From Lathyrus oleraceus (taxonomy: Eukaryota > Streptophyta > Magnoliopsida > Fabales > Fabaceae): 64,000 nucleotides of DNA. A program made the translations under genes and the position numbers. The notes beneath the pieces are model-generated. The model made no database searches and was not told the DNA's origin. It worked only from the letters and a program-made list of their open reading frames with translations. How positions within the stretch are numbered: position 1 is the stretch's first letter; each line of letters begins with the position of its first letter. This document shows positions 28,277 through 60,455 of the stretch, piece by piece. Location: positions 433,219,408-433,283,407 of the forward strand of contig NC_066584.1 in assembly GCF_024323335.1 (NCBI RefSeq). The letters are read 5' to 3'.

Positions 28277-28802
28277 TCTTTTGTTGTCATTTGTGTGGAT
28301 TACTGTCAGGCCTGTTGACGGAATTCATTTGCTTGTATTTTCTTTCCGATTCTGGAGAATTGTATTGATTTGTATCAGTCTTGATGTATGACTTTGGCAC
28401 TTATTGTGCACTTTTGATATGCAATGGTTATTTTCATTCAGTGATTGGTCTTCAAGCTTTATTTGCTTTCCTGTATGCACTCACATGGCACACACGTGGT
28501 TGGGTGGTATCTTTGCTAAATCATATATCTCTGATCTGTATGATGAATCATGTGATGAATGTCAGAATATTGTCGCCGGATTATTATCTGTCTCGATGAA
28601 GCCAAGATCGAAAGACAGGGTGTCCCTCATATGGATAGACATTGCACTCATGCATTATCATAATAACTTGTTTTTTATTTTGCAGGTATTAGTTCTAACG
28701 TGCTTGATTGTTACAGGAATCATTGCTCGTGCTCGTAGAGTTGTACCCTTGCACACAACACGTCCACACAGATATTTCACCAGACGCAACACACCTAGGC
28801 TA
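28277..28802 (+). other. ORF1-gag spacer
   Basis: No domain seen. The gag frame stays open back to about 28404, but the encoded stretch looks random and includes TTTTATTTTGCAG (28673-28685) and TTGTTACAG (28707-28715), both usable splice acceptors. This hints that gag is reached by splicing from an upstream leader. Confidence 0.45.
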
Positions 28803-31800: not shown

Positions 31801-32095
31801 TGGTGAAGAGTGGGGAAGCTCCAGGTTGGGGGAAGATGATGGATATCTCCGCCAAGAAAGACCGCTTTGGAGTGGGTTATCAGCCGGGCCGAGGCTCGTC
31901 TGGACAAGGTAGAGGACGTCGTATGTCAGTCACAGTCACCAGTGCTGGAATGCTGGATCCAGATCACATCTGTATGGTGGATGAAGAAGTTGACAGCGAC
32001 TGCGAGATTGATCGGTGGATAAAGCCGTGCTCACCAGGGATGGAAATCCAGAACTGGAAGGCTGAAAAGATCATCACTGTCACTATACTTGAAGA
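28803..32095 (+). pseudogene. Ogre gag-protease, one premature stop
   Basis: Start taken at ATG 28803, which opens a heptad-rich helix (LELKEKMNELISIMQG). The retrotransposon gag domain follows at about residues 175-330 (SLEWYTKL, FFKQYQFN, GFKEYAQRWRELA), then a Gln/Pro-rich linker, a variant zinc knuckle CX2HX5HX4C (CEFHSGALGHNVENC, 30210-30254) and an aspartic protease with DTGSS at 31317-31331 and LLGRPWIH downstream. A TAG at 29907-29909 interrupts the frame after the gag domain. The frame is open again to TAA 32097-32099, but a GT splice donor overlaps that stop (exon end 32095), so the native product is probably joined to RT by splicing. Cytoplasmic particle formation and polyprotein cleavage are the known family roles. 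Confidence 0.9.
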
Positions 32096-32269
32096 GTAAT
32101 ATTTTCTTGTTTTTCAATTTTATTTGCATGGAAGCCATACGTTTTGCCCGAAACGTAATGGTTCATTGTAAGGGCCACCTCATGTTTCATTTTGCAAATT
32201 TGCATCATAAATAAAAGGATGTTTTTTCAATTAAAAGCGGTGTTCCCTATTTTTCATTTATTTTTGCAG
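32096..32269 (+). other. Probable intron between protease and RT
   Basis: GTAATATT donor at 32096 and TTTATTTTTGCAG acceptor ending at 32269; 174 bp, A/T-rich, containing the gag-protease stop. Exon 1 ends after two bases of a codon and 32270 completes it; the frame then runs without a stop into the RT ORF. A second in-frame acceptor, CATTCATGCAG ending at 32365, is possible. An intron at this place is an established Ogre feature; the exact sites are inference. Confidence 0.65.
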
Positions 32270-35200
32270 TTTAAAAACAAAAATAAAAATGGCAATGTTT
32301 TCATTTTTCTTTTCAATTTGTATCGCTCCGGTTCTAAAGCAATGCATGAATCAACATTCATGCAGATGCGATTTCTCGTCGGATCTCGTTGATAACAATC
32401 CTGTTACACCCTCATATGACTTCGACAATCCGATCTATCATGCCGAAGAAAAAGACGAAGATGATTGTGAACTGCCAGGGGAATTAGCCAGGTTGTTGAA
32501 ACAAGAGGAGAAGGTGATTCAGCCGCATGAAGAGCAAGTTGAGATTGTGAATCTGGGTACCGACGAGGTCAGAAAAGAGGTGAAAGTTGGGGCTGCTTTG
32601 GAGACGAGTGTCAAGATCTTGTTGAAAGAGTATGTCGACATCTTTGCCTGGTCTTATCAAGATATGCCAGGGTTGGATACCGATATCGTTGTGCACAAGC
32701 TACCGTTGAGAGCGGATTGTCCTCCAGTGAAGCAGAAGTTGCGCAGAACTTGACCTGAGATGGCGATGAAAATTAAGGAGGAAGTACAGAAACAGTGGGA
32801 TGCTGGTTTCCTAGCTGTCACTAATTATCCACCTTGGGTTGCGAACATTGTGCCGGTCCCGAAGAAAGATGGGAAGGTGAGAAAGTGTGTGGACTACCGG
32901 GATCTGAATAGAGCTAGCCCGAAGGATGATTTTCCGTTACCTCACATTGATGTGTTGGTAGATAATACAGCTCAATTCTCGGTGTTTTCCTTCATGGATG
33001 GCTTTTCTGGCTATAATCAAATCAAAATGTCGCCAGATGATATGGAGAAAACAACGTTCATCACACCATGGGGCACCTTTTGTTACAAGGTGATGCCATT
33101 TGGGCTCAAGAACGCCGGTGCTACTTATCAGAGAGCCATGGTGACTTTGTTTCATGATATGATTCATCATGAAATTGAATGCTATGTTGATGACATGATA
33201 GCAAAGTCCCAGACAGAAGAGGGGCATTTGGTAGATCTGGCCAAGTTGTTCGACCGGCTGAGACAGTTCAGACTGAGGTTGAATCCGAATAAGTGTACTT
33301 TCGGAGTGCGGTCCGGTAAATTGCTGGGGTTCATTGTAAGTGAAAAAGGAATCGAGGTTGATCCTGCTAAAGTAAAAGCAATAAGAGAAATGCCTGAACC
33401 GAGAACGGAGAAGGAGGTTCGTGGTTTCTTAGGTAGATTGAACTACATTTCACGGTTCATATCTCATCTAACAGCCACGTGTGAACCAATATTCAAGCTG
33501 TTGAGAAAAGATCAAACGGTCAGGTGGAATGATGATTGCCAAGCGACATTTGAAAAGATAAAAGAATATTTGCAGGAGCCTCCGATTCTGATGCCTCCTG
33601 TGGAGGGACGACCGTTAATCCTGTACTTGACGGTCCTCGAGGGGTCTATGGGGTGTGTATTGGGGCAGCATGACGAGTCTGGTCGAAAAGAGCATGCCAT
33701 ATACTACCTTAGCAAAAAGTTTACCGACTGTGAAACAAGATATTCACTGCTCGAGAAAACTTGATGTGCTTTGGCCTGGGCTGCTTGCCGACTGAGGCAG
33801 TATATGCTGGTTCATACCACTTTGTTGATTTCCAAGATGGATCCAATCAAGTACATTTTTGAGAAGCCAGCATTGACCGGACGGGTTGCGAGGTGGCAAA
33901 TGATTTTGACAGAATATGATATACAGTATACCTCTCAGAAAGCAATCAAGGGGAGTGTATTGTCTGATTACCTCGCTCAGCAACCCATTGAGGATTATCA
34001 ACCGATGAAGTTTGAATTCCCTGATGAGGACATCATGTTTCTCAAATCGAAAGATTGCGAGGAACCAATCCCAGAGGAGGGGCCTGACCCTGAATCCGAA
34101 TGGATTCTGATGTTTGATGGGGCCGTTAACGTAAATGGTAGCGGTGTTGGTGCTGTTTTGGTTACGCCGAAAGGATCCCATATTCCTTTTGCTGCCCGGC
34201 TAACATTTGAGTGCACCAACAACGTGGCTGAATACAAAGCTTGTATCTTGGGGATTGAAGAGGCGATTGATCTGAGGATCAAGAACCTTGTTATATATGG
34301 AGATTCAGCTTTGGTGGTGAATCATGTTAACGGGAAATGGTATACGCATCAATCTCATTTAGTTCCATACCGGGATTATACGAGGAGATTGTTGACATTT
34401 TTCACCAAGGTGAAAATGCATCACGTGCCCAGAGAAGAGAACCCGTTGGCAGATGCTTTGGCTACTCTGGCTGCCTTGATAAAGGTGCAATGGTGGAATC
34501 AGTTCCCCAGTGTTGAGGTGGGACGTATGGATAGACCGGCTTATGTGTTTGCTGTTGATACAACGCCTGATGATGAGAAGCCGTGGTATTACGATATCAA
34601 GCGCTATCTGGAAACTCAAGAGTATCCTGAGGGAGCATCCAAGAAGGACCGAAAGACTCTGCGGAGGTTGGCTATGGTGTTCTACTTGAATAAGGATGGG
34701 GTTTTGTACAAGAGAAATTTCGATTGGGTCTTGCTCAGATGTGTTGATGATAAAGAAGCGAGCCAATTGATGAAAGAGGTTCACGAGGGGTCGTTCGGTA
34801 CCCATGCCAGTGGGAATACAATGGTGAAGAAGCTGCTGAGGGCAGGTTATTACTGGATGACGATGGAGGCCCAATGTTTCAATTTCGTGCGGAAGTGTCA
34901 TAAATGCCAGATTTATGCTGATAAGGTGCACGTGCCTCCAAATCCGTTGAGCTTAATGTCGTCTCCGTGGCCGTTTGCTATGTGGGGCATTGATATGATT
35001 GGGAAGATTGAGCCTACGGCTTCGAATGGGCATCGGTTCATATTAGTGGCTATTGATTACTTTACCAAGTGGGTGGAAGCAGCCTCTTATACGAACGTGA
35101 CGAAGCAGGTCGCTGCCAGATTTCTCAAGAGAGACATCATTTGCAGATATGGGGTTCCCGAAAGAATCATTACTGATAATGGTTCTAATTTGAACAACAA

Positions 35201-35834
35201 GATGATGGCAGAACTGTGCCGGGAATTCAAGATCGAGCATCACAATTCTTCTCCTTATCGTCCGAAGATGAATGGGGCGGTTGAGGCAGCCAATAAGAAT
35301 ATAAAGAAGATTGTGCAAAAGATGGTCGTGACCTATAAGGATTGGCATGAGATGTTGCCGTTTGCATTGCATGGGTACTGAACTTCGGTACGTACATCTA
35401 CTGGGGCAACGCCTTTCTCGTTGGTATATGGAATGGAAGCCGTGCTACCGGTTGAGGTTCAAATTCCCTCTTTGAGAGTCCTGATGGACGTGAAATTGCA
35501 AGAGGCTGAATGGGTAAGGACCCGGTACGAAGAGTTGAGCCTGATTGAGGAAAAGAAGCTGGCGGCCATCTGTCATGGGCAGTTATACCAGCAGCGGATG
35601 AAGCGTACATTTGACCGAAAGGTGCGACCTCGTGTGTATCACGTGGGTGATATGGTGCTGAAAAGGATCCTTCCTCCTCAAAACGATCGAAGGGGCAAAT
35701 GGACACCCAATTATGAAGGTCCATTCGTGGTCAAGAAGGTTTTCTCTGGCGGAGCCTTGTTGCTAACGACCATGGATGGCGAGGATTTTCCATCCCCTGT
35801 GAATGCGGACGCAGTTAAAAAATACTTCGTATAA
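32270..35834 (+). pseudogene. Ogre pol: RT, RNase H, second RNase H, integrase; three stops
   Basis: One frame with all pol domains. RT: CVDYRDLN, FMDGFSGYNQ, MPFGLKNAG and YVDD at 33183-33194. A first RNase H-like segment (LILYLTVLEGSMGCVLG) has lost the canonical acidic start. A second RNase H follows with FDGA (Asp 34116-34118), NNVAEY, YGDS and ADALA, the four acidic positions of an active RNase H. Integrase: HHCC finger (HEGSFGTH, CHKC), GIDMIG, TDNGS (Asp 35175) and Glu 35283-35285, so the D-D-E triad is present. A C-terminal module with GPFVVKKV ends KKYFV at TAA 35832. Premature TGAs at 32751, 33762 and 35379 disable this copy; two of them lie where Arg is expected. Confidence 0.92.
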
Positions 35835-36889: not shown

Positions 36890-37330
36890 CAGTACCCGAC
36901 TTTCCTGGTTTCCCCAAGTAGAGTCGGGATTGTTACCTCCTCAGCAGATTTGAGGTCTGTGTCTTCCCTAGCAGGGTCGGCATGGTTATCCCCCAGCGGG
37001 TTTGAGATCGGTGTTTCCTCAGCAACCGGGCCTGGAGGTTGCTATTTCCCAGTGGAGGTATCTATTGGTATTGGTTTCTCCAAGCAGAGTCGGGATTGTT
37101 ATATCCCCAACAAGTCAGAGATTGTTGGTTTCCCCACAGAGTGCGTTGGTGGTTCTTTCCCCAGCGAAGTCCCCAAGTGGATCGGGTGCAGAGGAGTGTA
37201 TTCCTGGTAAGGGTGGCCTATTTCCCAGCAGCAGTGTTATTCCCCAGCAGGGTGGAGATCGGAGTGTTGTCGAGTTCCTCAACAGAGTGCCTCGAGCTCC
37301 CCAGAAGAGTCCCTTGAGGGGGATACTTTT
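36890..37330 (+). repeat. Degenerate tandem repeat A in 3' UTR
   Basis: About twelve imperfect units of some 30-40 bp built on TCCCCAGCAG-GT followed by a G/T-rich part (GGGATTGTT, GAGATCGG). Open in several frames over short stretches, but with no conserved protein; the apparent ORFs are repeat artefacts. Confidence 0.75.
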
Positions 37331-38538: not shown

Positions 38539-39858
38539 TGTAACACCTCAAAATTTGCCCTCTTCTCTTGGGACTAGCTTAACATATTGCATTTCATCTT
38601 GTAGGTCATTAGTCATTGCATTTTTGCATATCATGTGGCAACAATGAGCAAGTCATCCTCCTAGGTCTTTCTCAGAAGATGGAAAGGTTAAAAGATTCAA
38701 GCCTGAGGGTTTCATTGAATTGATCACTAGCCATCTGAGGGTTTGTGTTCCAATTTGGGTTTTTTGGTTCTTCAAGGAGATTGGTCATTATCTTGGTTGC
38801 AATGGTACATCACCATCATCATGGTCTTATCATCACCAAGAGGTTTATTATGCCTGATCAGCTTCCTTGGGATTAGGGTTTTGACCTCTGGTCAACCCTA
38901 ATCAGTTGAATTGTGCCAATCAGGGTTTTGCAAGGAGATGAGGTTTTTCATGAGATGGGGATCATCATGTGGTTTCATAGAGCTTGTATAAGCTAGGGTT
39001 TCATCCTGGAGCCATTTCATCAGAAGATTGAGGCTCAAATTCATCTGTGCATAGCCAAGTCATCTATCAACTGAAAAAGTCAACCAAAAGTCAACTGATG
39101 GATTTGGAGGTGGGAAATGGTTAGAGAGGCTTCATTCATGTTCAAACAAGTCTCATTTGACATTTCAAACATCAACAATGAAGAATTTGAGGTCAGATGA
39201 AAAGTTTCCAAAAATAGTAAGTGACCTGTAATTTGAAATTGCCAAAAATGGAAAGGTTTTCTCCTCAAGATTACGTCATCAAAAATGCTTCAACTGAAAT
39301 TTTGTCCAACATGAAAGTTGAATATCTTGCTCTCACCTTTCCAAAAAGTCCAAGAACATGAATTTCTCATGTATGGTTGAAGAGATATGGATCAATCATT
39401 GCCAAGTCAATTTGAATTTCACAAGTGCATAACTTTTGAACCATAAGGCCAATTGAAGTGGTTCTTTTTGCAACATTCTTGTTTTGACATGTACTATCCA
39501 ATTCATGCATCACATATCATGCATTTCCATCACAAAAATTTTGGACTTTTCATTTGAATTTTGGAGGGAAAATCCAAATTCAAAAATTGTGCATAACTTT
39601 CACTTCCAATCATGTGCATTTGGCTTAAAACAGGTTTTGCAAGTGAATTAAGACAGATTTCGTGCACTGTAGCATTGGTCTTCATGCATATAGGGTGAAT
39701 TGACAAATTTGCATAACACTTGGTTTTAGCTAATTCCAATTGCATTGCCTAATTGTGATTAAGAGTTTCATTAGTACAACATATATATAGCATAATCATA
39801 ACAGAAATTGGATTAACACTTCATAATTTCCAGATCTAGATCCATTTGCATCATTCTC

Positions 39859-42800
39859 TTCATTTGGTTCTCTCACTTTTTCATCAAAATTCTCCATAAA
39901 CCTTGCATTGTTCTTGATCAATCCTTGATCCACGAGCATAATTGGACATTTTTAGAAGCAAGATTCATCCATTTTCGAGCTAATTTGGAACTGTTGAAAG
40001 TTACATCCATTAATGGCAATTGAAGATTTGAGCAACATCAAGCACGATTGAGCATCAATTCTCCATCCATTCATTCATAGGAGCATTGGAGATTATCTGT
40101 TTTTGCTTTCCAGGACTTAAAACAACCAATTCCAGTTCTGCATTCTCTTGAAGGTCAGAATTCGACTTTCCTAATTCATAAAATTGTGATGTGCATGTTG
40201 TAGATCGTTCATCCCTGAGTATGCTGAGCTTTGTCTCATTGAATTTCATTAAGAAATGAACAAGATATGCTAGATCTAAGTTTTATGTATGAAACTTCCT
40301 TTGCTTGAATCGTTGCATGTGTGTAGAATTAGAGTAATATAATCCTTGATCCATGATGTATGTTGGAAGATCTATCCAATGGTGTACTTTTTATGAATTT
40401 CTGGACGATTTTGTTCTTGGCCTGGGAAGAACATGATGAACTGTATGAAGGTGCTGATGAACTCGTTCCCAGGCGCGCATAGATCCGTTAGGCTGAGTTT
40501 TTTAGGGTTTGCATGTGTTTGTGTGAATCGTTCCATGTATTGGTCCACGTTGCACTCACCTGGCGTTTTGATTGGAGGCCTCCCCGCGTTGACTACGTTG
40601 ACTAGCCAGGGATTAAATGAAACGGCGCATTTCATCCCTTGGCGCCTAATCCATTTCAAATGATACCACTCTTCGATTCTGGCTTGCCACACTATTTCAA
40701 TTGCATTTCATTTTATTTCATGTATTCCATTCATTCATGAACCATGCTTTCATATGTTTTTTTTATTTTTCATTCACTTAGAAAATTCATAACTCCATTA
40801 ATATTAATCCAAATGGCCTGGGAATTTTTGCATATTGTTCCTCATGATGTCTAGTATTTTATGACTATTTTTCCAGAAATTGTGCACGGTTGGAATTTAA
40901 TTTGGCTTAGGGATTGTTCATATGTGTGCTATCTTGTACCTTGCTTGCCAATTGCTTTGTGAAATGATGAGATTTTATCCAATGCTCTTGAAACTTTGCA
41001 TGCTTAAACTAGACATCCTAATTGACATTTTGGGGTAGAGTTTGCATTTTTAGAATTTTTGGTTGTTGAGATATGCTCATGTTAATGTAGGTGTGACAAT
41101 GTGTGTCACACCTTTGCTTGCTCAATTGGTTAATTTTCTTTGCCATGCCAAACAAATGTCAATTGATGTGATTTTTTGCATGATGCTTTGTCGGGATGTT
41201 AGGATTGATCATGAATTTTTGTGGAATTTTTGGATTCATTTCTGATTTTTTTGGTATTTTTCTTGCTGGATGATCATTTGTGGACTTTTGAATAGTCATG
41301 AACTTCAATGATTTGTGAAATGCTTATGCTTTATCATATGAACTTGAAATTTTGCGCATTGTTTCTAGACACTTTGAAGTTTATTGTGGCTTTGGTTTAA
41401 GGCATTTATCATGTTTGGATTCTGTTTTAGGCTTGTGCTAAGTTGATGCATCTAATTGTGCCCTATTTGAGCTTGTTTGTGCTTACCTTGCCTTATGGAA
41501 TTTGATTACCATGCTTAAACTTGTCCAAATGCCTTGATTTTTGGTGTGTTGATCATGTGATGTGTTCTGTTTAGCCATGATTTTTCTTGAGATTTATTGA
41601 ATCATTTTTGAATTGATGTGGATTTGTTCATTCTGTTGCCTCAATGTGGTTCCAACTTGCATGCCTTGCCATGATTGCTTTGTAAAATGAATTTGGTTGA
41701 TGCTATTGACATGAGACCTTTTGGATTGTGTTATTAATTGATTGAGCTTGATTCATGTCAATTTTCATGTTCTGTTTTGAATTATTTCTCCCTCTTTGAC
41801 CCTAGGCCTTGTCCTAGTGGTTTGTGCTTATGTTTGAGCTTTGTTTTCAGGATGAAAAGCATATGGTCATGAAGGAGATTGATTCACTTGCTTGAGTTGG
41901 ATTATTTGAGCTTTGTTGACTAATCTTGAAGTTGTTTTATAGGTGGCTTTTAGCTCATTTGATTTGAGCTTGTGCATTGCACCTTGATGCATTGCTTGTT
42001 TGACTATTGTTTGACTATGTACAGTTAACTGTTGACTATTGGACTGTCTGTTTGACTTTTTGAGTTGTATACTGACTGAGTTAGATTGTTTTCAGGTACA
42101 TTAGTTGCTTAAGTTCTTTGAACTTGCTTTTTCTGTTGCTTGGTTGCTTAACCATTTGAGGTATAATTCACTGACTTCATGTAGTCTGGAAGACCTGTCC
42201 TGTTACTTGGGCAGGCACCTGTCTGAAGCCCTCCTTAAGAGGCAATGCTTGTGTTTGTTTATCTTTGTGCCAAGCAGGAAAAGACCTTTGATAAGGCAAT
42301 TGGCAGATAAAAGAGATGTGCAATCCATCTCCTGCTATTCAGTTGAGTCATCCCTTTGCTCACACACCTTGTGTTGATGCATTGTGGATATTAACCCAAG
42401 ATCTATGTTGAGTCAGTCATATGTGGATAGAAGAGTTCCTGCTTTCTGAACTCCCACACCTTCTATTTGAGTCAAGCTCTCCCAGGCCAGGGATAAGAGC
42501 TGTGAGGCACACCCCTCACTTCCCATTTCATCTGCTTCACCCTAACTCTCAATGTTAGGGTTAAGAGCTAACTACACCCGATTCCAGTTGGCTTGTGTTT
42601 CACAGCCTAACCTTGTGTGAGCCCACTTTGTTTGTATATAGTGTGTGCTAATTGTGTGTGCTAATTGTGTGTATGTTTGCTTTGCTTTGCCTGTTTAGGA
42701 TAGCTTGCTGCCTGTGCAAGTTAGATAGAAAACTCAACCTAGGACCATTGTGGAATGCATGATAACTATTAGGCTCGAGTCAGTCTCCCTTCTAGTTTGT

Positions 42801-43602
42801 CATTTCCCAGTCTCTGGTTAGGAGAAAGTTTCTCCCCTGTTCAGGGGAACTACGTTGCCCTGATCCTCATATCAGATGGGGTACGTAGGCAGGAGATCGT
42901 ACGGGATCTCTCCGGGCACCCTTTCTCTTTTTTGTGTGTGTGTTTGTTTGACAGTTACTAGGCTCGAGTGCCAGACTCCTTAGTAACCTGTTGTTTGTTG
43001 ATCCTTCTTGTGTGTGTTAGGATATGGACGTAAGACCAGCAATTGGCATTCCGTATCCTATTGTTGTGTGCTTGGAGTCTGATATAAGTCCAGCAATTGG
43101 CATTTGGTTTCCAGTGTGGGTTTGTTTGGTTCGGAGTCTGATGTAAGTCCAGCGATTGGCATTCGGTTTCCATGTTTGCCTGTTGTGCGTGTGTTTTGTT
43201 TCGGCGTGCGTGAGCCGAACTACGGTAGCTTTGATTCTCATTCCAGATGAGATACGTAGGCATAGGATGCGATATCCTAGCGAGCCCTTTCCCCTCTTAT
43301 CCCACCTGTGTTGTTTCCGGTGTGTGTGTGATGTTTGTGAGCAACTTCTGTTTTAGCAACCTTATCCTTTCCTTTTGAGCGTGGATCCCGTCGAGTACGA
43401 CGGATGCGTAGGGGTGCTAATACCTTCCCTTCGCATAACCGACTCCCGATCCCATCTCTCTTTGGTCGCGAGACCATGTCTTTTCCAGGTTTACTTCGAG
43501 CATTTCCTTTCCCTCTTTGGGATAAATAACGCACAGTGGCGGCTCTGTTTGTTTTGTTTTAGCCCGCCGGTTGTTTTTCGCGGATGCGACAATTGGCGAC
43601 TC
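39859..43602 (+). repeat. Tandem unit copy A (3' LTR)
   Basis: 3744 bp, ending in GCGACA-AT-TGGCGACTC. Uninterrupted counterpart of 5738-21759. It carries two copies of the 46-nt module (42847, 43217) and one three-fold tandem repeat (43021-43185). Confidence 0.93.
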
Positions 43603-46600
43603 TTCATTTGGTTCTCTCACTTTTTCATCAAAATTCTCCATAAACCTTGCATTGTTCTTGATCAATCCTTGATCCATGAGCATAATTGGACATTTTTGGA
43701 AGCAAGATTCATCCATTTTCGAGCTAATTTGGAACTGTTGAAAGTTACATCCATTAATGACAATTGAAGATTTGAGCAACATCAAGCACGATTGAGCATT
43801 AATTCTCCATCCATTCATTCACAGGAGCATTGGAGATCATCTGTTTTTGCTTTCCAGGACTTAAAACAACCAATTCCAGTTCTGCATTCTCTTGAAGGTC
43901 AGAATTCGACTTTCCTAATTCATAAAATTGTGATGTGCATGTTGTAGATCGTTCATCCCTGAGTATGCTGAGCTTTGTCTCATTGAATTTCATTAAGAAA
44001 TAAACAAGATATGCTAGATCTAAGTTTTATGTATGAAACTTCCTTTGCTTGAATCGTTGCACGTGTGTAGAATTAGAGTAATATAATCCTTGATCCATGA
44101 TGTACGTTGGAAGATCTATCCAATGGTGTACTTTTTATGAATTTCTGGACGATTTTGTTCTTGGCCTGGGAAGAACATGATGAACTGTATGAAGGTGCTG
44201 ATGAAATCGTTCCCAGGCGCGCATAGATTCGTTAGGCTGAGTTTTTTAGGGTTTGCATGTGTTTGTGTGAATCGTTCCATGTATTGGTCCACGTTGCACT
44301 CACCTGGCGTTTTGATTGGTGGCCTCCCCGCGTTGACTACGTTGACTAGCCAGGGATTAAATGAAACGACGCGTTTCATCCCTTGGCGCCTGATCCATTT
44401 CAAATGATACCACTCTTCGATTCTGGCTTGCCACACTATTTCAATTGCATTTCATTTTATTTCATGTATTCCATTCATTCATGAACCATGCTTTCATATG
44501 TTTTTTTTATTTTTCATTCACTTAGAAAATTCATAACTCCATGAATATTAATCCAAATGGCCTGGGAATTTTTGCATGTTGTTCCTCATGATGTCTAGTA
44601 TTTTATGACTATTTTTCCAGAAATTGTGCACGGTTGGAATTTAATTTGGCTTAGGGATTGTTCATATGTGTGCTATCTTGTACCTTGCTTGCCAATTGCT
44701 TTATGAAATGATGAGATTTTATCCAATGCTCTTGAAACTTTGCATGCTTAAACTAGACATCCTAATTGACATTTTGGTGTAGAGTTTGCATTTTTAGCAT
44801 TTCTGGTTGTTGAGATATGCTCATGTTAATGTAGGTGTGACAATGTGTGTCACACCTTTGCTTGCTCAATTTGTTGATTTTCTTTGCCATGCCAAACAAA
44901 TGTCAATTGATGTGATTTTTTGCATGATGCTTCTTCTGGATGTTAGGATTGATAATGAATGTTTGTGGAATTTTTGGATTCATTTCTGATTTGTTTGGTA
45001 TTTTTCTTGCTGGATGATCATTTGTGGACTTTTGAATAGTCATGAACTTCAATGATTTGTGAAATGCTTATGCTTTATCATATGAACTTGAAATTTTGCA
45101 CATTGTTTCTAGACACTTTGAAGTTTATTGTGGATTTGGTTTGAGGCATTTATCATGTTTGGATTCTGTTTTAGGCTTATGCTAAGTTGATGCATCTAAT
45201 TGTGCCCTATTTGAGCTTGTTTGTGCTTACCTTGCCTTATGGAATTTGATTACCATGCTTAAACTTGTCCAAATGCCTTGATTTTTGGTGTGTTGATCAT
45301 GTGATGTGTTCTGTTTAGCCATGGTTTTTCTTGAGATTTATTGAATCATTTTTGTATTGATGTGGATTTGTTCATTTTGTTGCCTCAATGTGGTTCCAAC
45401 TTGCAAGCCTTGCCATGATTGCTTTGTGAAATGAATTTGGTTGATGCTATTGACATGAGACCTTTTGGATTGTGTTCTTAATTGATTGAGCTTGATTCAT
45501 GTCAATTTTCATGTTCTGTTTTGAATTATTTCTCCCTCTTTGACCCTAGGCCTTGTCCTAGTGGTTTGTGCTTATGTTTGAGCTTTGTTTTCAGGATGAA
45601 AAGCATATGGTCACGAAGGAGATTGATTCACTTGCTTGAGTTGGATTATTTGAGCTTTGTTGACTAATCTTGAAGTTGTTTTGTAGGTGGCTTTTAGCTC
45701 ATTTGATTTGAGCTTGTGCATTGCACCTTGATGCATTGCTTGTTTGACTATTGTTTGACTATGTACAGTTAACTGTTGACTATTGGACTGTCTGTTTGAC
45801 TTTTTGAGTTGTATACTGATTGAGTTAGATTGTTTTCAGGTACATTAGTTGCTTAAGTTCTTTGAACTTGCTTTTGTTGTTGCTTGGTTGCTTAACCAAT
45901 TGAGGTATAATTCACTGACTTCATGTAGTCTGGAAGACCTGTCCTGTTACTTGGGCAGGCACCTGTCTGAAGCCCTCCTTAAGAGGCAATGCTTGTGTTT
46001 GTTTATGTTTGTGCCAAGCAGGAAAAGACCTTTGATAAGGCAATTGGCAGATAAAAGAGATGTGCAATCCATCTCCTGCTATTCAGTTGAGTCATCCCTT
46101 TGCTCACACACCTTGTGTTGATGCATTGTGGATATTAACCCAAGATCTATGTTGAGTCAGTCATATGTGGATAGAAGAGTTCCTGCTTTCTGAACTCCCA
46201 CACCTTCTATTTGAGTCAAGCTCTCCCAGGCCAGGGATAAGAGCTGTGAGGTCTTACCCTCACTTCCCATTTCATCTGCTTCACCCTAACTCTCAATGTT
46301 AGGGTTAAGAGCTAACTACACCCGATTCCAGTTGGCTTGTGTTTCACAGCCTAACCTTGTGTGAGTCCACTTTGTTTGTATATAGTGTGTGCTAATTGTG
46401 TGTATGTTTGCTTTGCTTATGCTGATTAGGATAGCTTGCTGCCTGTGTAAGTTAGATAGAAACCTCAACCTAGGACCATTGCGGATTACATGATAACTAT
46501 TAGGCTCGAGTCAGTCTCCCTTATAGTTTGTCATTTCCCAGTCTCTAGTTAGGAGGAGGTTTCTCCCCTGTTCAGGGGAACTACGTTGCCCTGATCCTCA

Positions 46601-47348
46601 TACCAGGTGAGGTACGTAGGCAGGAGATCGTACGAGATCTCTTCGGGCACCCTTTTTTTCTTTTTGTGTGTGTTTGCTTGACAGTTGCTAGGCTCGAGTG
46701 CCAGACTCCTTAGTAACTTGTTGCTTGGTTAACCCTCTTGTACGATAGGAGATGGATGTAAGCCCAGCGATTGGCATTCCGTATCCTATTGGCGTTTGTT
46801 TGTGTGGAGTCTGACGTAAGTTCAGCGATTGGCAGTTGGTTTCCTGTGTGTGTTTGTTGGTTCGGAGTCTGATGTAAGTCCAACGATTGGCATTCGGTTT
46901 CCATGTTTGCCTGTTTGTGTGTTTGTTTTGACGTCTCAGCGTCTGTGCGTGTGTTTTGTTTCGGCGTGCGTGAGCCGAACTACGGTAACTCTAATTCTCA
47001 TTCCAGATGAGATACGTAGGCATAGGATGTGATGTCCTAGCGAGCCCTTTCCCCTCTTCTCCCACCTGTGTTGTTTCCAGTGTGTGTGTGTGATGTTTGT
47101 GAGCAGTTTTAGCAACCTTATTCTTTCCTTTTGAGCGTGGATCCCGTCGAGTACGACGAATGCATAGGGGTGCTAATACCTTCCCTTCGCATAACCGACT
47201 CCCGATCCCATCTCTCTTTGGTCGCGAGACCATGTCTTTTCCAGGTTTACTTCGAGCGTTTCCTTTCCCTCTTTGGGATAAATAACGCACGGTGGCGGCT
47301 CTGTTTGTTTTTGTTTTAGCCCGCCGGTTGTTTTTCGCGGATGCGACA
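43603..47348 (+). repeat. Tandem unit copy B (3' LTR)
   Basis: 3746 bp, ending at the LTR terminus. It shares copy-B markers with 21760-25506 (GAGGTCTTACCCTCAC at about 46248). Confidence 0.93.
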
Positions 47349-47353
47349 GTTGC
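47349..47353. repeat. Target-site duplication GTTGC (right)
   Basis: Second copy of the Ogre duplication. The chromosome sequence then continues TAGCAACATGG, in the decayed mobile-domain gene. Confidence 0.93.
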
Positions 47354-48927: not shown

Positions 48928-49228
48928 TGTGAAGACAAGCTTCTCAAAGTATTTGATGAAGACATGCTCTTCAAGAAAATGTGCATCGCAAAAAGAATGG
49001 TTCCAGACTCAAACACAAGTCAAGCTTCACTTATAAAATAATTTCAAGTCTTGAAGATTTCTATTGAATTGATCAAATTATTAAGGTATAAAGTTCTCAA
49101 CCTCTCTATGTTCATTAAAGTGCTCAAGAGTCTCATTCATACATGTCATGTTTCATTTAGGCCTCTTAAATATTTTCATTTGGCCTTACAATTCATTTTC
49201 AACTGCATTTGGTCATTCTGCCTTGATG

Positions 49229-49409
49229 GTAATCGATTATCAGGTTTGAAGTAACCGATTACCAGTTGTTTGCATTGCCTTTTGCGACAATTTTTGTAGT
49301 AGGTAATCGATTACCATATTTTGGGTAATCGATTACATGGTGAAAATTTTCAAATTTTTTAATGTTGGTTCAGGTGTAACTGATTACACCATCTTGGGTA
49401 ACCGATTAC
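49229..49409 (+). repeat. Array of paired GTAATCGATTAC palindromes
   Basis: Six 12-mers at 49229, 49251, 49303, 49325, 49376 and 49398. Within each pair the spacing is exactly 22 bp; pairs repeat every 73-74 bp. Variants are GTAACCGATTAC and others with one or two changes. Same layout in the 3' LTR (60772, 60794, 60846, 60868, 60919, 60941). Confidence 0.95.
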
Positions 49410-49525
49410 CACTGAACCAATGGTAGAAATAAATGCATTTTTTCATGAAAACATTTTCTGAATTATGTTCTTGAATCATGACATCCATTCATGAATTATG
49501 ACCATTTAGAAAGGTGTCTAAGGGT

Positions 49526-49533
49526 TATATATA
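49526..49533 (+). promoter_or_regulatory. Candidate TATA box, inner copia 5' LTR
   Basis: TATATATA in GGGTTATATATACCAC; conserved at 61069-61076. Confidence 0.5.
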
Positions 49534-50180
49534 CCACATATTTTCAGAATTTGAATACACCTCCTTCACACTAATATTTAGAACAATTTTTCTCTTCATT
49601 TTTTCAAATTTTCTCAAGTGTTCTTGATTAAATTTTCTGGTGAAACTTTCTACACAGAATTTTCAATATACATTCATATAGTTCCATCCATACCATTCTT
49701 AGAGCACTTTTATGTCATAAAGAGAATTAATTTCTTAAAAGGAGAAGATCAATCAATAGATTTATATATTCTTCCATCTTTCAAAAACTTGTAAAAACTC
49801 ATATTGTTCTTGTTATCCTTGTTGTCTAGGACTGTTGGAAACAAGAGGTTCATTAAAGGGAGTGTTGTTCTCTTTTTGAACTTAGTGAAAAATCCAAGAG
49901 GATTGTTCTTGGTGTTCTTGTTAGAGGATGTATAAAAAGTATAGGTTCTCTTGTCCATAAGATCTAACAATAATAATATCTCTTACATGTGGTAAGGGGA
50001 CTAGAGTACTCTCGGATTGTGAGGGGAACCAGTATATGTCTCAGTGTTCTTTACTTTCCACACTTTACCATTTCATGCATAACCTAACCAGAAAAGAAAG
50101 AACGAGTTTTCATAAAACCGGAAAAAGTTTTCAAAGAACCTAATTCACCCCTCCTCTTAGGTGCATACTCAACTTACATT

Positions 50181-50192
50181 TGATATCAGAGC
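50181..50192 (+). promoter_or_regulatory. Copia primer-binding site (initiator Met tRNA)
   Basis: TGATATCAGAGC, three bases after the LTR; one change from the usual TGGTATCAGAGC. Confidence 0.85.
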
Positions 50193-50226
50193 AGGTTGTT
50201 GGTAACTTGCTCCTTAGATCCAGAAG

Positions 50227-51430
50227 ATGGCTTTCGCAAGCGCAAACCTGATTTGCAAAAATGGTGGTAGTAGCAACAAATCCCCTCTATTTTTGGAGAA
50301 TATTTTGACTTCTGGAAAATACGCATGAAAACACATTAAGAAGCACAAGGAGATGGTATATGGGAAACCCTTGAAAATGGTCCGCATAATCCAATTAGTA
50401 TGGTCAATGGTGTTGGCACTCCTAAGGTTAAAAGTTCCTATGATGAAGACAATAAGAAAATAATACTTAATGAAAAGAAAGCTATAAATATTCTTCAAAG
50501 GGCATCAAGTATGGATGAGTTCTTCTGTATATCTCTATGTAAATCGACAAAAGAAATATGGGACACTTTGATGGAGACTCACGAAAGAACCGCTGAAGTT
50601 AAAAGATCCAGATTAAACACATTGAGTCAAGAATATGAAATGTTCAGAATGCAGCCCGGAGAATCCATTGTTGCATTGCAAAAAAGATTTGTTCACTTAG
50701 AGAATCATTTAATTTCTCTCGGAAAGGCCTTTACAAATGACGATCTCAAACTTAAAGTGCTAAGATCCTTGACTAGAGAATGCAACCAAAAGTAACGGCT
50801 ATATCGGAGAAGAAAAGTCTTTCTACCATGACGTCCACATCATTATTCAGAAAACTCCAAGAACATGAACTTGAACTTGGAAGACTTGAAAAGCATGAAA
50901 GTCAAGAGAATAAATCCAAAGGCATTGCTTTGAAAGTAGACTCAAAGGAAGATAAAGATGATGGCACATCGAAGGAAGATAAAAATTTCATGCTCCTTGT
51001 TAAAAGGCTTGGTAAGTTTTTTGGTAAAAATGACAAATCCTTTTATGCAAAAAGAAATTAACATTTCAGGAAAAGGGAGGCTTCCATATCTACACAAGAT
51101 GTCACATGCTATGAATGTGGAAAGCAAGGTCATATAAAGTAGGATTGTCCGAAACTCTCCAAGAAAGGTGGCTTTAAAGGAAAGAAGGAATTCAAGAATA
51201 AAAAGGCGTATGTTGCATGGGAAGATAATGAAATAAGTTCTTCATCCGGATCGGAAAGAGACGAATGTGCAAATCTAGCATTAATGACTTCACAACATTC
51301 CGATGATGAAGAAGATGAATGCTTGATTGAAGATGAAGTCACCAATGAGGTAAAACTCAAAGGTAAAAGAATCAATAATATATTTATGATTTCCCTTGAT
51401 GATTTGTCTTTGAAAGTAAAATGTCCCATG
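50227..51430 (+). pseudogene. Inner copia gag, frameshifted
   Basis: ATG at 50227 (MAFASANL). A frame change near 50290 leads into the conserved FDFWKIRM stretch, then a TAA near 50336. The main gag body is at 50400-50780 (IWDTLMETHE, LNTLSQEYEMF, ENHLISLGK), with another shift near 50785 and a lysine-rich stretch. The zinc knuckle CYECGKQGHIK-DCP lies at about 51106-51152 with a TAG inside. An acidic stretch (HSDDEEDECLIEDE) follows. It then jumps to LKGKRINNIF, normally found after the protease; no DSG-type protease motif is seen, so a deletion removed that region. Confidence 0.82.
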
Positions 51431-52560
51431 GTGAACAACAATGACACATGGTTATGGCATAAGAGAATTACTCACATTCATATGGAACACTTGAATAAAC
51501 TAGTCAAGCATGATCTTGTCATTGGATTGCCTAAGATAAAGTTTTTCAAAGATATATTATGTGATGCATGTCAAAAGGGAAAGCAAACCAAATCAACTTT
51601 CAAACCTAAGAATATGGTGTCCACTTCAAGGCCACTACAATTGTTGCATATGGACTTATTTGGTCCATCAAGAACAAGAAGCTTTGGAGGTAATGTATAC
51701 GCTTTAGTTATTGTTGATGATTTATCTAGATATACTTGGACATTTTTTAGTGCAGAAAAGTGATGCATTCAAGGCGTTCAATAAGTATGCAAGGCAAATC
51801 CAAAATGAGAAATCACTAAAAATTGCCTCCATAAGAAACAACCATGGCGGAGATTCCAAAACGCCTCTTTCGACGAATTTTGAGAAGAACATGGATCTTT
51901 CACAATTTATCGGCACCAAGGACTCCTCAACAAAATGGAGTGGTGGAGAGAAAGAATAAGTCACTCGTGGAACTTGCAAGTACAATGCTCAGCGACTCAA
52001 ATCTTCCAAAATATTTTTTGGCGGATGTTGTAAGCACGACATGCTATGTAAGTAATAGAGTTATTATAAGACCTATTTTGAAAAATACTCCTTATGAACT
52101 TTTCAAAGAAAGGAAACCATAAATTGCTTATTTTCACATTTTTAGATGCAAATGCTTTGTCTTAAACAATGACAAAGACAACCTCGGTAAGTTTGATGAA
52201 AAGTTGGATGAAGGTATTTTTCTTGGCTATTCTCTCTCTAGTAAAGCATATAGAATTTATAATAAATGAACCTTAACTACTGAAGAATCTATGCATGTTT
52301 CTTTCAATGAAACTAACCCTCCAAGGAGGATGCTGTTTTGTGTGATGATGATGATATTGTAGATGTTCCTCAAGAAGATACTTCCAAAGGCAACAATGAT
52401 AATCAAACGGAACATCATGAAGAACCAATTCAACAAGAGTCAAATGATAATAATCTACCTAAAGAATGAAGAACTCATAGAGATCATCCAATTGATAAAG
52501 CCATCGGTGATATTAGTCAACATGTTGCAACAAGATTAAATCTCAAAGATGCATGCTTGA
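51431..52560 (+). pseudogene. Inner copia integrase, broken
   Basis: GAG-pre-integrase finger (HKRITHIHMEH...CDACQKGK) at about 51450-51580, then HMDLFGPS and VIVDDLSRYTW of the catalytic core. The frame breaks near 51763. The continuation reads IRNNHGGD, with Asn at the place of the second catalytic Asp of the family motif SDHG; a further shift leads to APRTPQQNGVVERKNKS with the catalytic Glu present. The C-terminal part (FLGYSLSSKAYRIYNK) is followed by stops. Not functional. Confidence 0.82.
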
Positions 52561-53330
52561 ATATGGCGTTTGTTTCATAAATTGAACCTTCCAAAGTTGA
52601 TGAAGCCTTAGGAGACAACCGATCGATAGTTGCAATGCAAGAAGAGTTAAACCAATTCAAAAGGAATCAAGTTTGGGAACTTGTCCCTAGGCCAAGTGGT
52701 AAACACATCATAGGTATCAAATGGGTGTTTAAGAATAAGCTTGATGAGAATGGTATAATTGTTCGAAACAAAGCAAGGTTGGTGGCCCAAGGATACAATC
52801 AAGAGGAAGGAATTGATTTTGAAGAAACGTTCGCTCCGGTTGCAAGGTTAGAAGCTATCTGTTTATTACTTGCTTATGCTTGTTTATTAAATTTTGAGTT
52901 ATTCCAAATGGATGTCAAAAGCGCCTTTTTGAATGACTACATCAATGAAGAAGTCTATGTCAAACAACCCCCGGGCTTTGAAGACTTCAAGAATCCTTCA
53001 TATGTCTTCAAGTTGAAGAAAGCTCTTTATGGCTTAAAACAAGCACCAAGGGCGTGGTATGATTGACTTAGCAACTTTCTTTATGAAAGAGGATTTGAAA
53101 AAGGTAAAGTTAACAAGACCTTGTTTATTAATAAAATAAAAGGTAACACTTTATTGGTTCAAGTCTATGTTGACGACATCATATTCGGCTCAATAAACAA
53201 AGAAATGTGTGAAGAATTTCCATTGATGATGCAAGGAGAATTCGAGATGTCCATGATGGGTAATATGAACTATTTTCTTGGACTCCAAATTAAGAAACTA
53301 AAGGATGACATCTTCATCAACCAATCAAAG
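52561..53330 (+). pseudogene. Inner copia RT, first part
   Basis: Good frame from about 52578: [76 protein letters not shown], a TGA at 53064-53066 where the family has Arg or a similar residue, then QVYVDDIIFG with YVDD at 53166-53177, and FLGLQI. The frame is cut at 53330 by the solo LTR and resumes at 54695. Confidence 0.88.
53326..53330. repeat. Target-site duplication CAAAG (left)
   Basis: CAAAG, repeated at 54695-54699. Removing the LTR and one copy restores the copia RT reading frame (NQSK-Y). Confidence 0.93.
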
Positions 53331-54694
53331 TGAAGGAGAATTGCCATCCAAGGCGCAGTGGAATTTAAAAATTTCTCCATTTAGTGATCCTTACGAATGG
53401 GCATGATCAGTGATAGAATCGTTACCTCTTGTGGCGATTCAAACCTTTGGTGCAGATCTCTTGTAACGATCAAAACCTTGGATACAAATCCACGGAGCGA
53501 TCACGAACATTGAACAATGACAACGTCTCTACTCAGTCCACATGAACGGGTTCCTTCAATCTCAGTGCTAGCTGGTACGAATGAAGGCTTTGAGTGAGAG
53601 AGAGAGGAAAACGAAATTCCAAGTCTTCACTTGAGTTTTAGTCTGAGTGACAATGCTTCTACCCAAGGGTTCTATTTATAGAACCACATGTGTGGGCTTC
53701 AAGCTAAAAAGCCCACTTAAGTGTATTTTGGCCCATATCTCATAATATGCCAAAATCACTTAAGTATTTGGTACCTTACCATATTTCGTATTCTACTTAA
53801 GTACACCGTAGCTTACGATGTTCCTTAGTTGCTCTATCTCTCATCAATCCGTCCTTTGTGTGTGACCCTGTAGGTTTTCGTGATGTTGGCAATTATATTA
53901 AATCACACATTTAACATAATAAACAGTGAGCGGTATCTAGCAACACATCACTGCTACCCAAGACACGAAAATGTCATGTGATCTGACAAAACCTCCTGTG
54001 ATAATAATTATGTGTATAATTACCCCTTTACCCTTATGTCTATATTAAACACGAGGTATAGACCGTGTCATCCTTGTCCAGTTCAATATTGGGCCCATAG
54101 ACATTTATCCTGTTACGCAGGATGGGCAAATTCCATCTAGGTCACTCATGTCCCTCAGCATGCTTCGTGGAGTACCCATCAACTGTCTTTATGGTTATCC
54201 AGTTACGGACAACGTTGGATCAGCAATAAAGCACTCGACTCTACATCTAGGATCCATAGTGGTTTCAGGTCGAAGAGTGGTATACACCATTATCACCATG
54301 AGAATAACTTATGACACTTTGCATAACTTTCTATATAGTATTCTCATAGCGGGTCAATCCGGTATAAATATTACTCTTAATATTCATACCTATGTTTAAG
54401 ACTTGATAACTCTTTATCCATGATCCATGAGATGTGATCATCAGTCTACAAACACAATAGTCTTAATGCTTTAATGTTATCCCACTTCACAATAAAGCTC
54501 GACTACGGATACTTTAAGAATAGTGTCCTTATGTTTAATGTGATCTCATGATTAAGTCATACTTGATACATTAAACGGACTAGCTATTCTAGGGACTTTA
54601 TTAATCAAACATAATAAAGAAAAAGCCTTTTATTAATTAATAAATATTTCGATACAAGTACCAAAAATATTGGCCTCTAGGGCTTACACCAACA
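53331..54694 (-). mobile_element. Solo LTR in copia RT
   Basis: 1364 bp. On the minus strand it starts TGTTGGTGTAAGCCC and ends TTCTCCTTCA. No internal sequence, flanked by CAAAG duplications, so a solo LTR left by LTR-LTR recombination. Minus-strand TATAAATA at 53673-53680 inside the inverted repeat GGTTCTAT/ATAGAACC. Family not identified with certainty. Confidence 0.9.
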
Positions 54695-54699
54695 CAAAG

Positions 54700-55353
54700 T
54701 ACTAAAAAGAGTTGTTGAAAAGATTCGACATGGATAGTTGCAAGGAAATGTCTACTCCAATGGGATCCGAAACTTATGTTGATCAAGATGAATCAAGTGC
54801 TTCGATTGATATCACAAAATATCGAGGCATGATTGGTTCCTTACCATATTTAACGGCAAGTCGTCCTGATATAATGTTTAGTGTGTGTCTTTGTGCGCAG
54901 TTTCAAGTCAATCCAAAGGAATCACATCTCACAGCTGTTAAAAGGACCATGAAGTATCTCAAAGGAACGATGAATGTCGGCATATGGTATCCAAAAGGTA
55001 GTATATGTGATTTATTTGGATATTCTGACTCGGATTATGCAGGTTAAAAAATTGATAGAAAAAGTACAAGTGGAACATGTCACATTCTAGGAAATGCATT
55101 AGTTTCTCCGGCGTGTAAGAAACAAGCATGTGTTGCTCTTAGCACCGAATAAGTAGAATACATAGCAGCAAGAAGTTGTTGTACTCAGATTCTATGGCTA
55201 AAGCAACAACTGAGTGATTTTGGACTAAATCTTGGATGCATACCACTTTGATGCGACAACACAAGTGCAATAAATATAACAAAGAATCCAGTCATGCATT
55301 CTCGTACTAAACACATAGATATTCGACATCACTTCTTACGTGATCATGTGTAA
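54700..55353 (+). pseudogene. Inner copia RT end and RNase H
   Basis: Continues the RT: an in-frame TAA at 54703, then ELLKRFDMDSCKEMSTPMG, YRGMIGSLPYLTASRPDI, VKRTMKYLKGT, and RNase H motifs GYSDSDYAG (followed by TAA 55045), KSTSGT, ALSTE (followed by TAA), [20 protein letters not shown] and [13 protein letters not shown]. Several stops; not functional. Confidence 0.87.
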
Positions 55354-55779
55354 TTGTTGGTGTCTTAAAATTAATTGCATGCTAATCCTGGTGAATATTC
55401 TGTTTTTTTATTGAGGTAATCGGTTACCCCTTATTCAGTAATCGATTACGTGCCTGCTTGTGTGACTCATTGCTGCATTTTTGCATAGTGTAACCGATTA
55501 CACCTCTCAGGGTAATCGATTACACCTGAACATTTTCCAAATTTTTTATTTTTATTAAATGTGTGTTATTTGTTTATGTGTTCATATTATATATTGTATT
55601 ATAATACAACATATGGTTGTTCATTTTTTAGTCTTTCCCATCCTTTTTGCTAATGACAAAGGGGGAGAAGATATATTTGGTTGTTGTATGTTTCTCTAAC
55701 AATGCAGCTAGCAATTACTTTAAAAATTCTCTCAATCATGATCATCAAGCTATGGATAAGCTAGAGATCAATAAAACCA
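55354..55779 (+). other. Copia post-pol region
   Basis: Holds four more palindromes at 55416, 55438, 55490 and 55512, with the same 22/74-bp layout as in the LTR, embedded in sequence that resembles the LTR repeat unit. GACAAAGGGGGAGAAG at about 55656-55672 is typical of SIRE-like elements after pol. Somewhere between 55680 and 55779 the sequence passes into internal sequence of the minus-strand Ogre-like element; the border was not found. Confidence 0.65.
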
Positions 55780-55788
55780 GAGTCGCCA
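55780..55788 (-). promoter_or_regulatory. Primer-site start of Ogre-like element
   Basis: TGGCGACTC on the minus strand, next to the LTR end. Identical to the first 9 nt of the large Ogre's PBS; the following bases differ. Confidence 0.75.
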
Positions 55789-58700: not shown

Positions 58701-60393
58701 TTTAACAATGGTACAAAGCTTTGGATCCTGGAGTTCTTAAATCTCCAAACAGTGAGATTCAAACTCAATTTTCAAGTTGAAAATTCTTAGGTTTTCCTTT
58801 GAAATGTGAGGGTTTGAATTGGGGGCAAAGCTGGCGCGCAAGGTGTGTTTGAATTGAGCTCCAAGGGCCTCTATTTATAGCAATTGGGACTGATATTTGC
58901 ACACTTGAAAAATTGATGAATTTGGTCATTTCATGCAGAAGCTTGCATGGGCGTGTACAAACCCATGAAGAAATCCAATTTGGTCCACTTGCATCTGTGC
59001 TGAAGTTTAAAATATGCTTGGATGTCAAGGCAAAGTGCAATGTGATTTTGGACATTTGATTTCTTCCAATCATGCAGCTCTGTTAAAGCCATACGCAGAC
59101 CTAGAAAACTGTACCCAAAATGCATGAACTTGGGTTCTTTGGAAAGCTTAGGTCAATGGGAACAACTTTGATGTTCAACACTTTTTCATTTGGAATTTGG
59201 GTCATGGTGAATTTGAAGGTGGAAGTTCGGAAATTTCAACATGTTGAAAAAATTTGTAAGTGTCAAGCCATATATCTCAATATTCCACCTTGCTTAACTT
59301 TTTATGTGAGCTTAAAATTAGAAAAGTGTCTTTATAAAAGTTGTAACTCTTTTAAAGACCTTAAAAATGGTCACCAATTTCATGGCATTTGGATTTAGAA
59401 TGATAGAGTTATGCATTTTTGAAGTTCGGAAAAATCACGTGTTCAATGGTATAGGTAAAAAATGACCTATAACGTATCCTCATATCACATGTTCATAAAA
59501 GTTGATTTGACTCTCACTCCAAACATAAAAGTTGAAGTAGACATCTTTAATTTGATTTTTAAACTTGGAAATATTTCATATCATAAGAATTGAGCAAGTT
59601 ATGGCCTTGGGAAGTTGACTTTCAAATTAGGGTTCAGACAAAATGACCAATAATGTTTCAACATAGAAAATGATTTTCCAAGCAAAACTAGCTCTAAGTC
59701 ACAACATGAAAGTTGTTTGGAATGTCATTTAGAGTAACTTTTCTCTTGGAATCATTTTCATATGGTGAAAAGTGTAGGATATAGGGTCTAGGGAGAACAG
59801 TTTTGATCAGATGAATTCATCTGCCCAACCACCATCAACCAACTTGCTAACCTTAAATTATTTTGACTTTCTTGGCTCATGGTAGATCATATATGCATAA
59901 GATGATGAATTTTGAAGTATCCCTTTATAAATTTGATCAATTGGAGAGATAGCTTGTTGGAGAAGTTACTCAAGATACCCAGTCAAACTAGGGTTTCCAA
60001 GGCAAACTACCTTCAAACTCTTGAAGAATACTTGATCAATATAACATGTAGGAATCATTGGGACTCATATATGATGCTTATAAACATTCTTGGATTAATC
60101 CATGGTTGTGCTTTTAGCCATGAGGGTTCTTAAACCCTAGATAAGAACTTGATAAATCAATGGGATCATGCCCTACCTACAAAAGAGTTAGGCAAATGCA
60201 AAGACATATTTTTGGTATTTTGGTTAGTAAAATGATAATATACAAGTATGATACAATCACATGGTGCTTGGTGATCTCTCCTAAAACAAACCCAATGAAA
60301 GAGGGCAAAGGAGGAAGCCAAGGTATGATTCCAATGCTAATGCTTATGATGAAATTGCATGAGGGATCTTAGGGTAAAAATTGGGGTCTTACA
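55789..60393 (-). mobile_element. Ogre-like LTR, about 4.6 kb
   Basis: On the minus strand it starts TGTAAGACCCCAATTTT at 60393, a form typical of legume Ogre LTRs, and ends next to TGGCGACTC. It contains the 46-nt U5 module (56064-56109), the GGTGCTAACACCTT-type motif at about 55913-55925 and TATAAATA at 58872-58879. Only the primer site and perhaps 100 bp of interior remain, so it is a truncated element. It lies inside the inner copia. No second duplication copy was found (AGTTT follows 60393). No host gene is visible within it. Confidence 0.8.
58872..58879 (-). promoter_or_regulatory. Candidate TATA box, Ogre-like LTR
   Basis: Minus strand CTATAAATAGAGG, matching the box at 1628-1635. Confidence 0.45.
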
Positions 60394-60455
60394 AGTTTCA
60401 ATTCTTCGAGAAAGCAAGATTGGATAAAACTTTCAAATAAAGAGTTGTCATTATA

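Follow-up and report, generated by a model that had tools for sequence, protein, structure and literature searches.

A tandem doubling of an R-U5-like unit with a primer-binding-site scar in both LTRs of an Ogre element from Lathyrus oleraceus

The element and its LTRs

We analysed a window of 64,000 nucleotides from Lathyrus oleraceus (contig NC_066584.1, positions 433,219,408 to 433,283,407), and all coordinates below are those of this window unless stated otherwise. The window contains a single Ogre-type Ty3/gypsy element, bounded by target-site duplications (TSDs) of sequence GTTGC at 4413-4417 and 47349-47353 and lying, with all of its features, on the + strand. Its 5' long terminal repeat (LTR; 4418-25506) and 3' LTR (38539-47348) each measure 8.81 kb, the former after removal of a nested element (5918-18187) and the second copy of that element's TSD. 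Both LTRs, 8.8 kb in round figures, are laid out alike, with a unique 3' (U3) region of 1.3 kb followed by two tandem units of ~3.74 kb that resemble the repeat and unique 5' regions (R-U5); with a single unit the LTR would measure ~5.07 kb, and the doubled form is ~74% longer. In the 3' LTR, single-copy U3 with the probable start of R spans 38539-39855, unit 1 spans 39856-43591 and unit 2 spans 43600-47348; unit 2 of the 5' LTR lies at 21757-25506. A preliminary description of this stretch had proposed two tandem units of about 3.75 kb in both LTRs, and the layout bears this out. The LTRs are 99.1% identical over 7.3 kb and 99.5% identical over 1.5 kb. Taking 0.5% divergence outside one odd region discussed below, and a rate of 1e-8 as quoted in PMC9258317, we roughly date the insertion to about 0.25 million years ago.

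Several features mark the element as a member of the Ogre/Tat lineage. In addition to the 5-bp TSD, its LTRs have TG...CA ends (the 3' LTR reads TGTAACACC...GCGACA and the 5' LTR starts with TGCAACACC), and tandem repeats are present in its 3' untranslated region (UTR). The coding region (26906-35381) runs in the order DUF7745 open reading frame (ORF), gag, protease (a weak match, under the Pfam cut-off), reverse transcriptase (RT)-RNase H, second RNase H (RVT_3) and integrase. The DUF7745 ORF (26906-28153) precedes gag, and we take it to be the extra ORF of Ogre elements. In Ogre/Tat elements the primer-binding site (PBS) is generally complementary to a tRNA, tRNA-Arg; the PBS of this element, located at 25509-25526, may likewise be so. 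The second, archaeal-type RNase H (aRH) is represented by RVT_3 at residues 115-233 of the ORF at 33771-35381, ahead of rve; aRH distinguishes Tat from Athila (PMC6317226), and the same source names a different domain for the extra ORF in 57% of Ogres.

The seam and its scar

At the seam between the two units (21743-21768 in the 5' LTR, 43586-43611 in the 3' LTR), unit 1 ends in GCGACA, the LTR end, followed by AT, then by TGGCGACTC, the start of the PBS, and then by the unit start TTCATTTGG. The full arrangement, GCGACA-AT-TGGCGACTC-TTCATTTGG, confirms in both LTRs the order that had been reported: LTR end, 2 nt, the first 9 nt of the PBS, and a unit start 77 bp past the TATA box. The scar in the 3' LTR occupies 43592-43602 and consists of the spacer AT plus PBS nt 1-9, or 10 nt counting a shared T; the TATATA motif lies at 39782, 77 bp upstream of 39859. 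The element's true PBS, by comparison, starts at 25509 after a GC spacer (spacer and PBS, TGGCGACTCAGTTGGGGA, together at 25507-25526). By simple arithmetic, a 9- or 10-base match to the PBS placed exactly 2 nt beyond an LTR end has a chance of ~4^-9 to 4^-10, and the scar is a piece of PBS.

For comparison we used 30 + 30 Ogre stretches chosen by likeness to the unit-1 or unit-2 tails, tail meaning the part of a unit beyond unit position ~2,200 and front the part before it (40 scored of 9,248 and of 10,259 candidates); 56 distinct relatives were left after the element's own four had been removed, and state counts refer to these. In 17 of the 56 the PBS is in place with TGGCGACTC, and the next base is T, completing CTCT, in all 17 (14 of them as TGGCGACTCTGCTGGGG). 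The element's own PBS reads TGGCGACTCAGTTGGGG, with CTCA where the relatives have CTCT; two relatives, L059 and L061, have a base change within the first nine PBS nucleotides, and there is one CTCG among the first 100 places listed of intact LTR-end/PBS sites. The acceptor sequence at the unit start is CATTCTCTTCATTTGG. Because the PBSs of relatives read CTCT, the joint probably shares these 4 nt; the microhomology noted in the preliminary description therefore stands, but its length of 3 nt (CTC) is probably one short. The spacer is GC in all 17 relatives with TGGCGACTC and AT in the scar of both LTRs, as it is at 37 of the 27,609 intact LTR-end/PBS sites of the genome; since both LTRs carry it, the AT spacer predates insertion.

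Two side observations concern the PBS itself. The PBS at 25509-25526 departs at two positions from the form most frequent in the family (CTCAGTTGGGG vs CTCTGCTGGGG), and the nearest unit-2 relative, L038, has one of these two differences. Separately, a motif resembling the reverse complement of the family PBS (CCCCAGCAGAGTCG, at most 2 mismatches) occurs five times in degenerate form in the 3' UTR (36913-37312, + strand). Shuffling gives an expectation of 0.07 per whole window, with the caveat that the five copies may form one tandem array and so not be independent. In the Ogre RNA, base pairing between the 3' UTR and the PBS would be possible.

Occurrence of the seam in the genome

The genome search covered one assembly of 3,795,255,167 bases in 1,550 contigs. 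The exact 18-mer seam has two matches genome-wide, one in each LTR of this element, and a 34-place seam pattern allowing up to 3 mismatches finds the same two places only. The ordinary LTR-end/PBS junction, by comparison, occurs at 27,609 sites (13,822 + 13,787; complete counts). For 56 other LTR tails, the 1.5 kb that follow contain no second unit; in L007 and L058, U3-like DNA lies downstream of the LTR tail, away from the joint. The doubled LTR is thus a single locus in this assembly, without a subfamily. The preliminary description had raised the prospect of an active subfamily and had itself named a junction confined to this locus as the outcome that would refute it; with both matches in this one assembly inside this element, we discard that idea. 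Searches of viral contigs and plasmids returned nothing.

We also searched for an LTR end followed by 2 nt, TGGCGACTC and then a departure from the PBS, and found 23 such places genome-wide; the pattern covers one scar length, and its last place excludes G, so this locus itself goes unmatched. Four of the 23, with Ogre-like LTR ends on contig C7 (G000:C7), have one common junction inside the PBS (318387136 for L074 and 318404063 for L075, 16.9 kb apart, plus 318424670 and 318472867). The two that were read, L074 and L075, run into a repeat that is also present at window positions 54236-54676. As this repeat comes next, the shared C7 junction is a nested insertion.

Two further LTR elements lie in the window. 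The nested one that splits the 5' LTR at 5918-18187 has LTRs of ~1515 bp at 98.6% identity, a TSD of AACAT and, in - orientation, genes for gag and RT-RNase H-integrase together with a Transposase_32 ORF. The other, at 48928-61697, has LTRs of ~1.2 kb at 92.6% identity, a GAG-pre-integrase remnant and one ORF of at least 150 aa.

History of the two units

The two units are tandem copies, as had been described, but they are not one sequence simply repeated. In an alignment of all four units, 74 of 3,712 sites distinguish unit 1 from unit 2, with the same states in both LTRs, and 61 other sites vary. These 74 diagnostic sites crowd into the last third of the unit (22 lie before position 2750 and 52 beyond it, where the other variable sites split 47 to 14; Fisher p 4.9e-8, or 3.1e-4 with clusters merged), which rules out one sequence that simply diverged. 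Counted as differences that precede insertion, 14 of 2,196 sites (0.6%) distinguish the units up to unit position 2,200, compared with 60 of 1,516 (4.0%) beyond it. The units therefore differed before insertion, which means that they, or their templates, already had a history by then. The doubling either predates the insertion or arose in the cycle that produced it.

Fronts and tails have different kinship. From position 2223 on, both states occur in at least 3 of the 56 relatives at 46 of the 60 diagnostic sites, compared with 0 of 14 before it, where most sites below position 1,300 are covered by only 3-6 relatives; the near-even split of states is partly a product of choice, because the relatives were selected by tail likeness. 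In a tree of 60 tails (without support values) the unit-1 and unit-2 tails fall in different groups, the distance to the nearest other copies being 3.5% for the unit-1 tail and 3.8% for the unit-2 tail. The fronts, up to unit position ~1,900, are each other's only close kin among the best 40 of 14,545 candidates scored. Within that set the next copy reaches 85% over the full 2.2-kb front query, and two partial matches reach 88-89% over 1.2-1.3 kb; single 250-bp pieces at positions 1,250-2,250 reach up to 95.6% in relatives. The copies nearest in the tail are ~80-83% identical in their longest front matches (one of them, L065, only 68-75% in pieces to position 2,158). Three of the nearest front relatives, represented by one LTR each, have tails that are ~73-85% like either unit in the longest pieces.

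As the units have a recent front in common but tails that group with different Ogre copies, a homologous switch also took place, and at least one tail was swapped between unit positions ~1,900 and 2,200. At 64 diagnostic sites, the tails of the three front relatives show unit-1 and unit-2 states in ratios of 30:21, 28:20 and 35:15, which lean towards the unit-1 tail as the older state without settling which tail is the newcomer. Enlargement of the LTR in one step, as the preliminary description had it, fits the joint itself, but at least one further recombination followed or accompanied it, given the grouping of the tails with different copies.

In the front, 13 sites could be polarised, most of those below unit position 1,300 by 3-6 relatives; the derived state, rare or absent in relatives, is in unit 2 at 11 of them and in unit 1 at 2 (binomial p 0.022), with one more site undecided. 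Seven of the 11 unit-2 changes are C>T or G>A. Together with the AT spacer, the derived unit-2 states lean towards an earlier residence in genomic DNA, either of the doubled form or of its templates.

Origin of the doubling

Our preferred reading, to which we assign a probability of roughly 40%, is that the transcribed part of the LTR became doubled when reverse transcription of a plus strand went wrong in a particle holding two Ogre RNAs. We favour a strong-stop mis-transfer, on either strand, over a duplication in DNA because both breakpoints resemble strong-stop ends. Plus-strand strong-stop DNA ends in the PBS, and the breakpoint 10 nt into the PBS, right behind U5, points to such an end; a random breakpoint would have a likelihood of ~0.5% of falling there (18 nt in ~3.7 kb, a rough figure). 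The second breakpoint, 77 bp past TATATA and probably just inside the transcribed region, points to the other strong-stop end. The probable 4-nt CTCT joint and the different kinship of the tails also speak for this reading, as does a single insertion with a TSD that carries the doubling in both LTRs.

We infer the strand, the step order, the co-packaging and the position of the transcription start site as follows. Plus-strand strong-stop DNA (U3-R-U5 plus ~10 nt of PBS) would miss its transfer to the minus-strand PBS, and its 3' end would instead anneal through CTCT to minus-strand DNA close to where R begins; this acceptor was possibly the 3' terminus of another minus-strand strong-stop DNA. 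Extension through R-U5 back to the primer would then yield U3-R-U5-pbs-R-U5-PBS. By the standard logic of strand transfer, the plus-strand route first doubles the 5' LTR only, so that a second cycle would be needed to spread the doubling to both LTRs. The different kinship of the tails would result from a homologous switch to another Ogre RNA at unit positions ~1,900-2,200, either at the same time or afterwards.

Several observations weigh against this scheme. The PBS of the element RNA and a PBS copied from tRNA are identical in letters here, so tRNA copying cannot be read off the scar. Plus-strand strong-stop DNA normally reaches 18 nt into the primer, compared with 10 here. Going by the usual spacing after a TATA box, transcription should start ~40 nt upstream of the acceptor, which is therefore no run-off end. 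We found no intermediate in the assembly with a doubled 5' LTR alone, and no parent to inspect, the front having no other copy above 85% over its full length among the best 40 of 14,545 candidates. One further result disturbs a simple account of the units: the unit-1 front (39856-42053 in the 3' LTR, compared with 5735-5917 joined to 18193-20207 in the 5' LTR) differs between the two LTRs at 36 of 2,197 sites (1.64%), compared with 9 of 2,196 in the unit-2 front (p 6e-5). This is ~2.5 to 4 times the divergence of U3 and the tails (both ~0.5-0.7%) or of the unit-2 front. Among 27 states found in the 3' unit 1 alone, nine are those that prevail in relatives; for the remaining three units combined the figure is 1 of 32 (p 0.0035). 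Heterogeneous templates in the last cycle, gene conversion or faulty polishing may lie behind this.

A possible though doubtful alternative is that the duplication happened in DNA: microhomology-mediated repair within the 5' LTR of a genomic copy would have duplicated 3.75 kb in tandem, from the start of R as far as PBS +10, and one normal retrotransposition would then have carried the duplication into both LTRs. A 4-nt joint is typical of such repair, and genomic residence of the doubled form would suit both the pre-insertion AT spacer, rare among intact sites, and the seven C>T or G>A changes of the unit-2 front. However, both breakpoints would then have landed on replication landmarks by chance. 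Nor was a seam-bearing parent found in the assembly, a weak point against this account, as the front is without any close copy there. Indeed, the absence of a parent decides nothing, because the front has no close copy elsewhere in the assembly; for the same reason we rejected it as proof of a last-cycle origin, parents being missing under every model (front at most 85% over full length elsewhere, among the best 40 scored).

Unlikely, in our view, is a minus-strand template switch, in which first-strand DNA in R of one RNA jumps via CTCT to the PBS of a co-packaged RNA and recopies U5-R before the normal first transfer. This would double both LTRs in one cycle by a single jump, without an asymmetric intermediate. 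The jump point would lie near the RNA 5' end, and the first transfer is forced near that end. The 11 derived states of the unit-2 front, compared with 2 in unit 1, look as if that front came from a different genomic template. On the other hand, the breakpoint in the PBS becomes a coincidence, and two near-identical members of the front lineage are required, whereas no other close copy was found in the genome.

That the second unit is an artefact of assembly or polishing, a mis-join of repeat reads, is very improbable. The assembly, if it is PeaZW6, was built from PacBio reads with Pilon correction (PMC9534762), and the odd surplus of 5'/3' differences in the unit-1 front would fit such an error. 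But the same seam and the same 74 diagnostic sites occur in two LTRs whose seams are 21.8 kb apart, each with later changes of its own. Ordinary unequal crossing over between LTRs, or a second Ogre nested in the first, has next to no probability: complex plant elements usually arise when neighbouring elements recombine (PMC1950507), but the visible anatomy of the seam rules both out, with no second U3, internal region or TSD there and a joint that links PBS position 10 with the R region, which are non-homologous positions.

Taken together, the data favour an origin in reverse transcription with further replication. The preliminary description had settled on plus-strand strong-stop DNA; the PBS scar and a breakpoint where strong-stop DNA ends agree with this, but that particular transfer is not singled out, because a minus-strand jump or a microhomology duplication in DNA leaves the same scar. 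The element is a single-locus fossil of an apparent strand-transfer error whose product still replicated and integrated, and it also shows Ogre LTRs to be mosaic. A scrap of PBS at a seam inside an LTR is a signature that can be searched for in any genome for jumps in LTR length. More generally, and rather speculatively, the joining of a plus-strand strong-stop end, located in the PBS, to its minus-strand counterpart close to the start of R might be a distinct replication error that adds one R-U5 unit and can itself be replicated; if so, it would be one route by which giant plant LTRs grow, a generalisation that we think less likely true than false.

Comparison with known systems

The literature searched, which included few subscription papers, yielded no account of an LTR that has grown by R-U5 and bears a PBS scar. 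Related events have been described. In the ONSEN family, recombination between members has been reported, its most likely occasion being the reverse transcription of two RNAs packaged together (PMC5668417). Asymmetric LTRs in proviruses of human immunodeficiency virus type 1 (HIV-1) have been proposed to involve the transfer of plus-strand strong-stop DNA from one copy to another (PMC9278108); those LTRs differ by deletions in one LTR, whereas here an enlarged LTR is present on both sides.

Abnormal template switching has also been proposed for complex elements of the Triticeae (PMC1950507). Like them, the present element has a flanking TSD and matching outer LTRs, which belong to the Sabot and Schulman (2007) definition of a complex element, and in both cases abnormal strand transfer between co-packaged RNAs is the proposed cause. 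Unlike them, it does not have the internal third LTR and two complete core regions of that definition; R-U5 alone is doubled, inside the LTR.

From the same family come the satellite-seeding tandem repeats of Ogre 3' UTRs, which have been attributed, as hypotheses, to abnormal strand transfer or to illegitimate recombination (PMC7004042, whose main text contains neither "PBS" nor "primer binding"). Those repeats, however, lie outside the LTR. The element otherwise resembles the Ogres (Tat, Ty3/gypsy) of the Fabeae in its 5-bp TSD, the extra ORF before gag, the order of RT, RNase H, second RNase H and integrase, and its 3' UTR tandem repeats. The canonical faba Ogre LTR is taken as 4,161 bp (PMC10033403), compared with ~5.07 kb for the single-unit LTR here. 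What sets the present element apart from these Ogres is an LTR of 8.8 kb made of U3 and two R-U5-like units with a scar of PBS between them.

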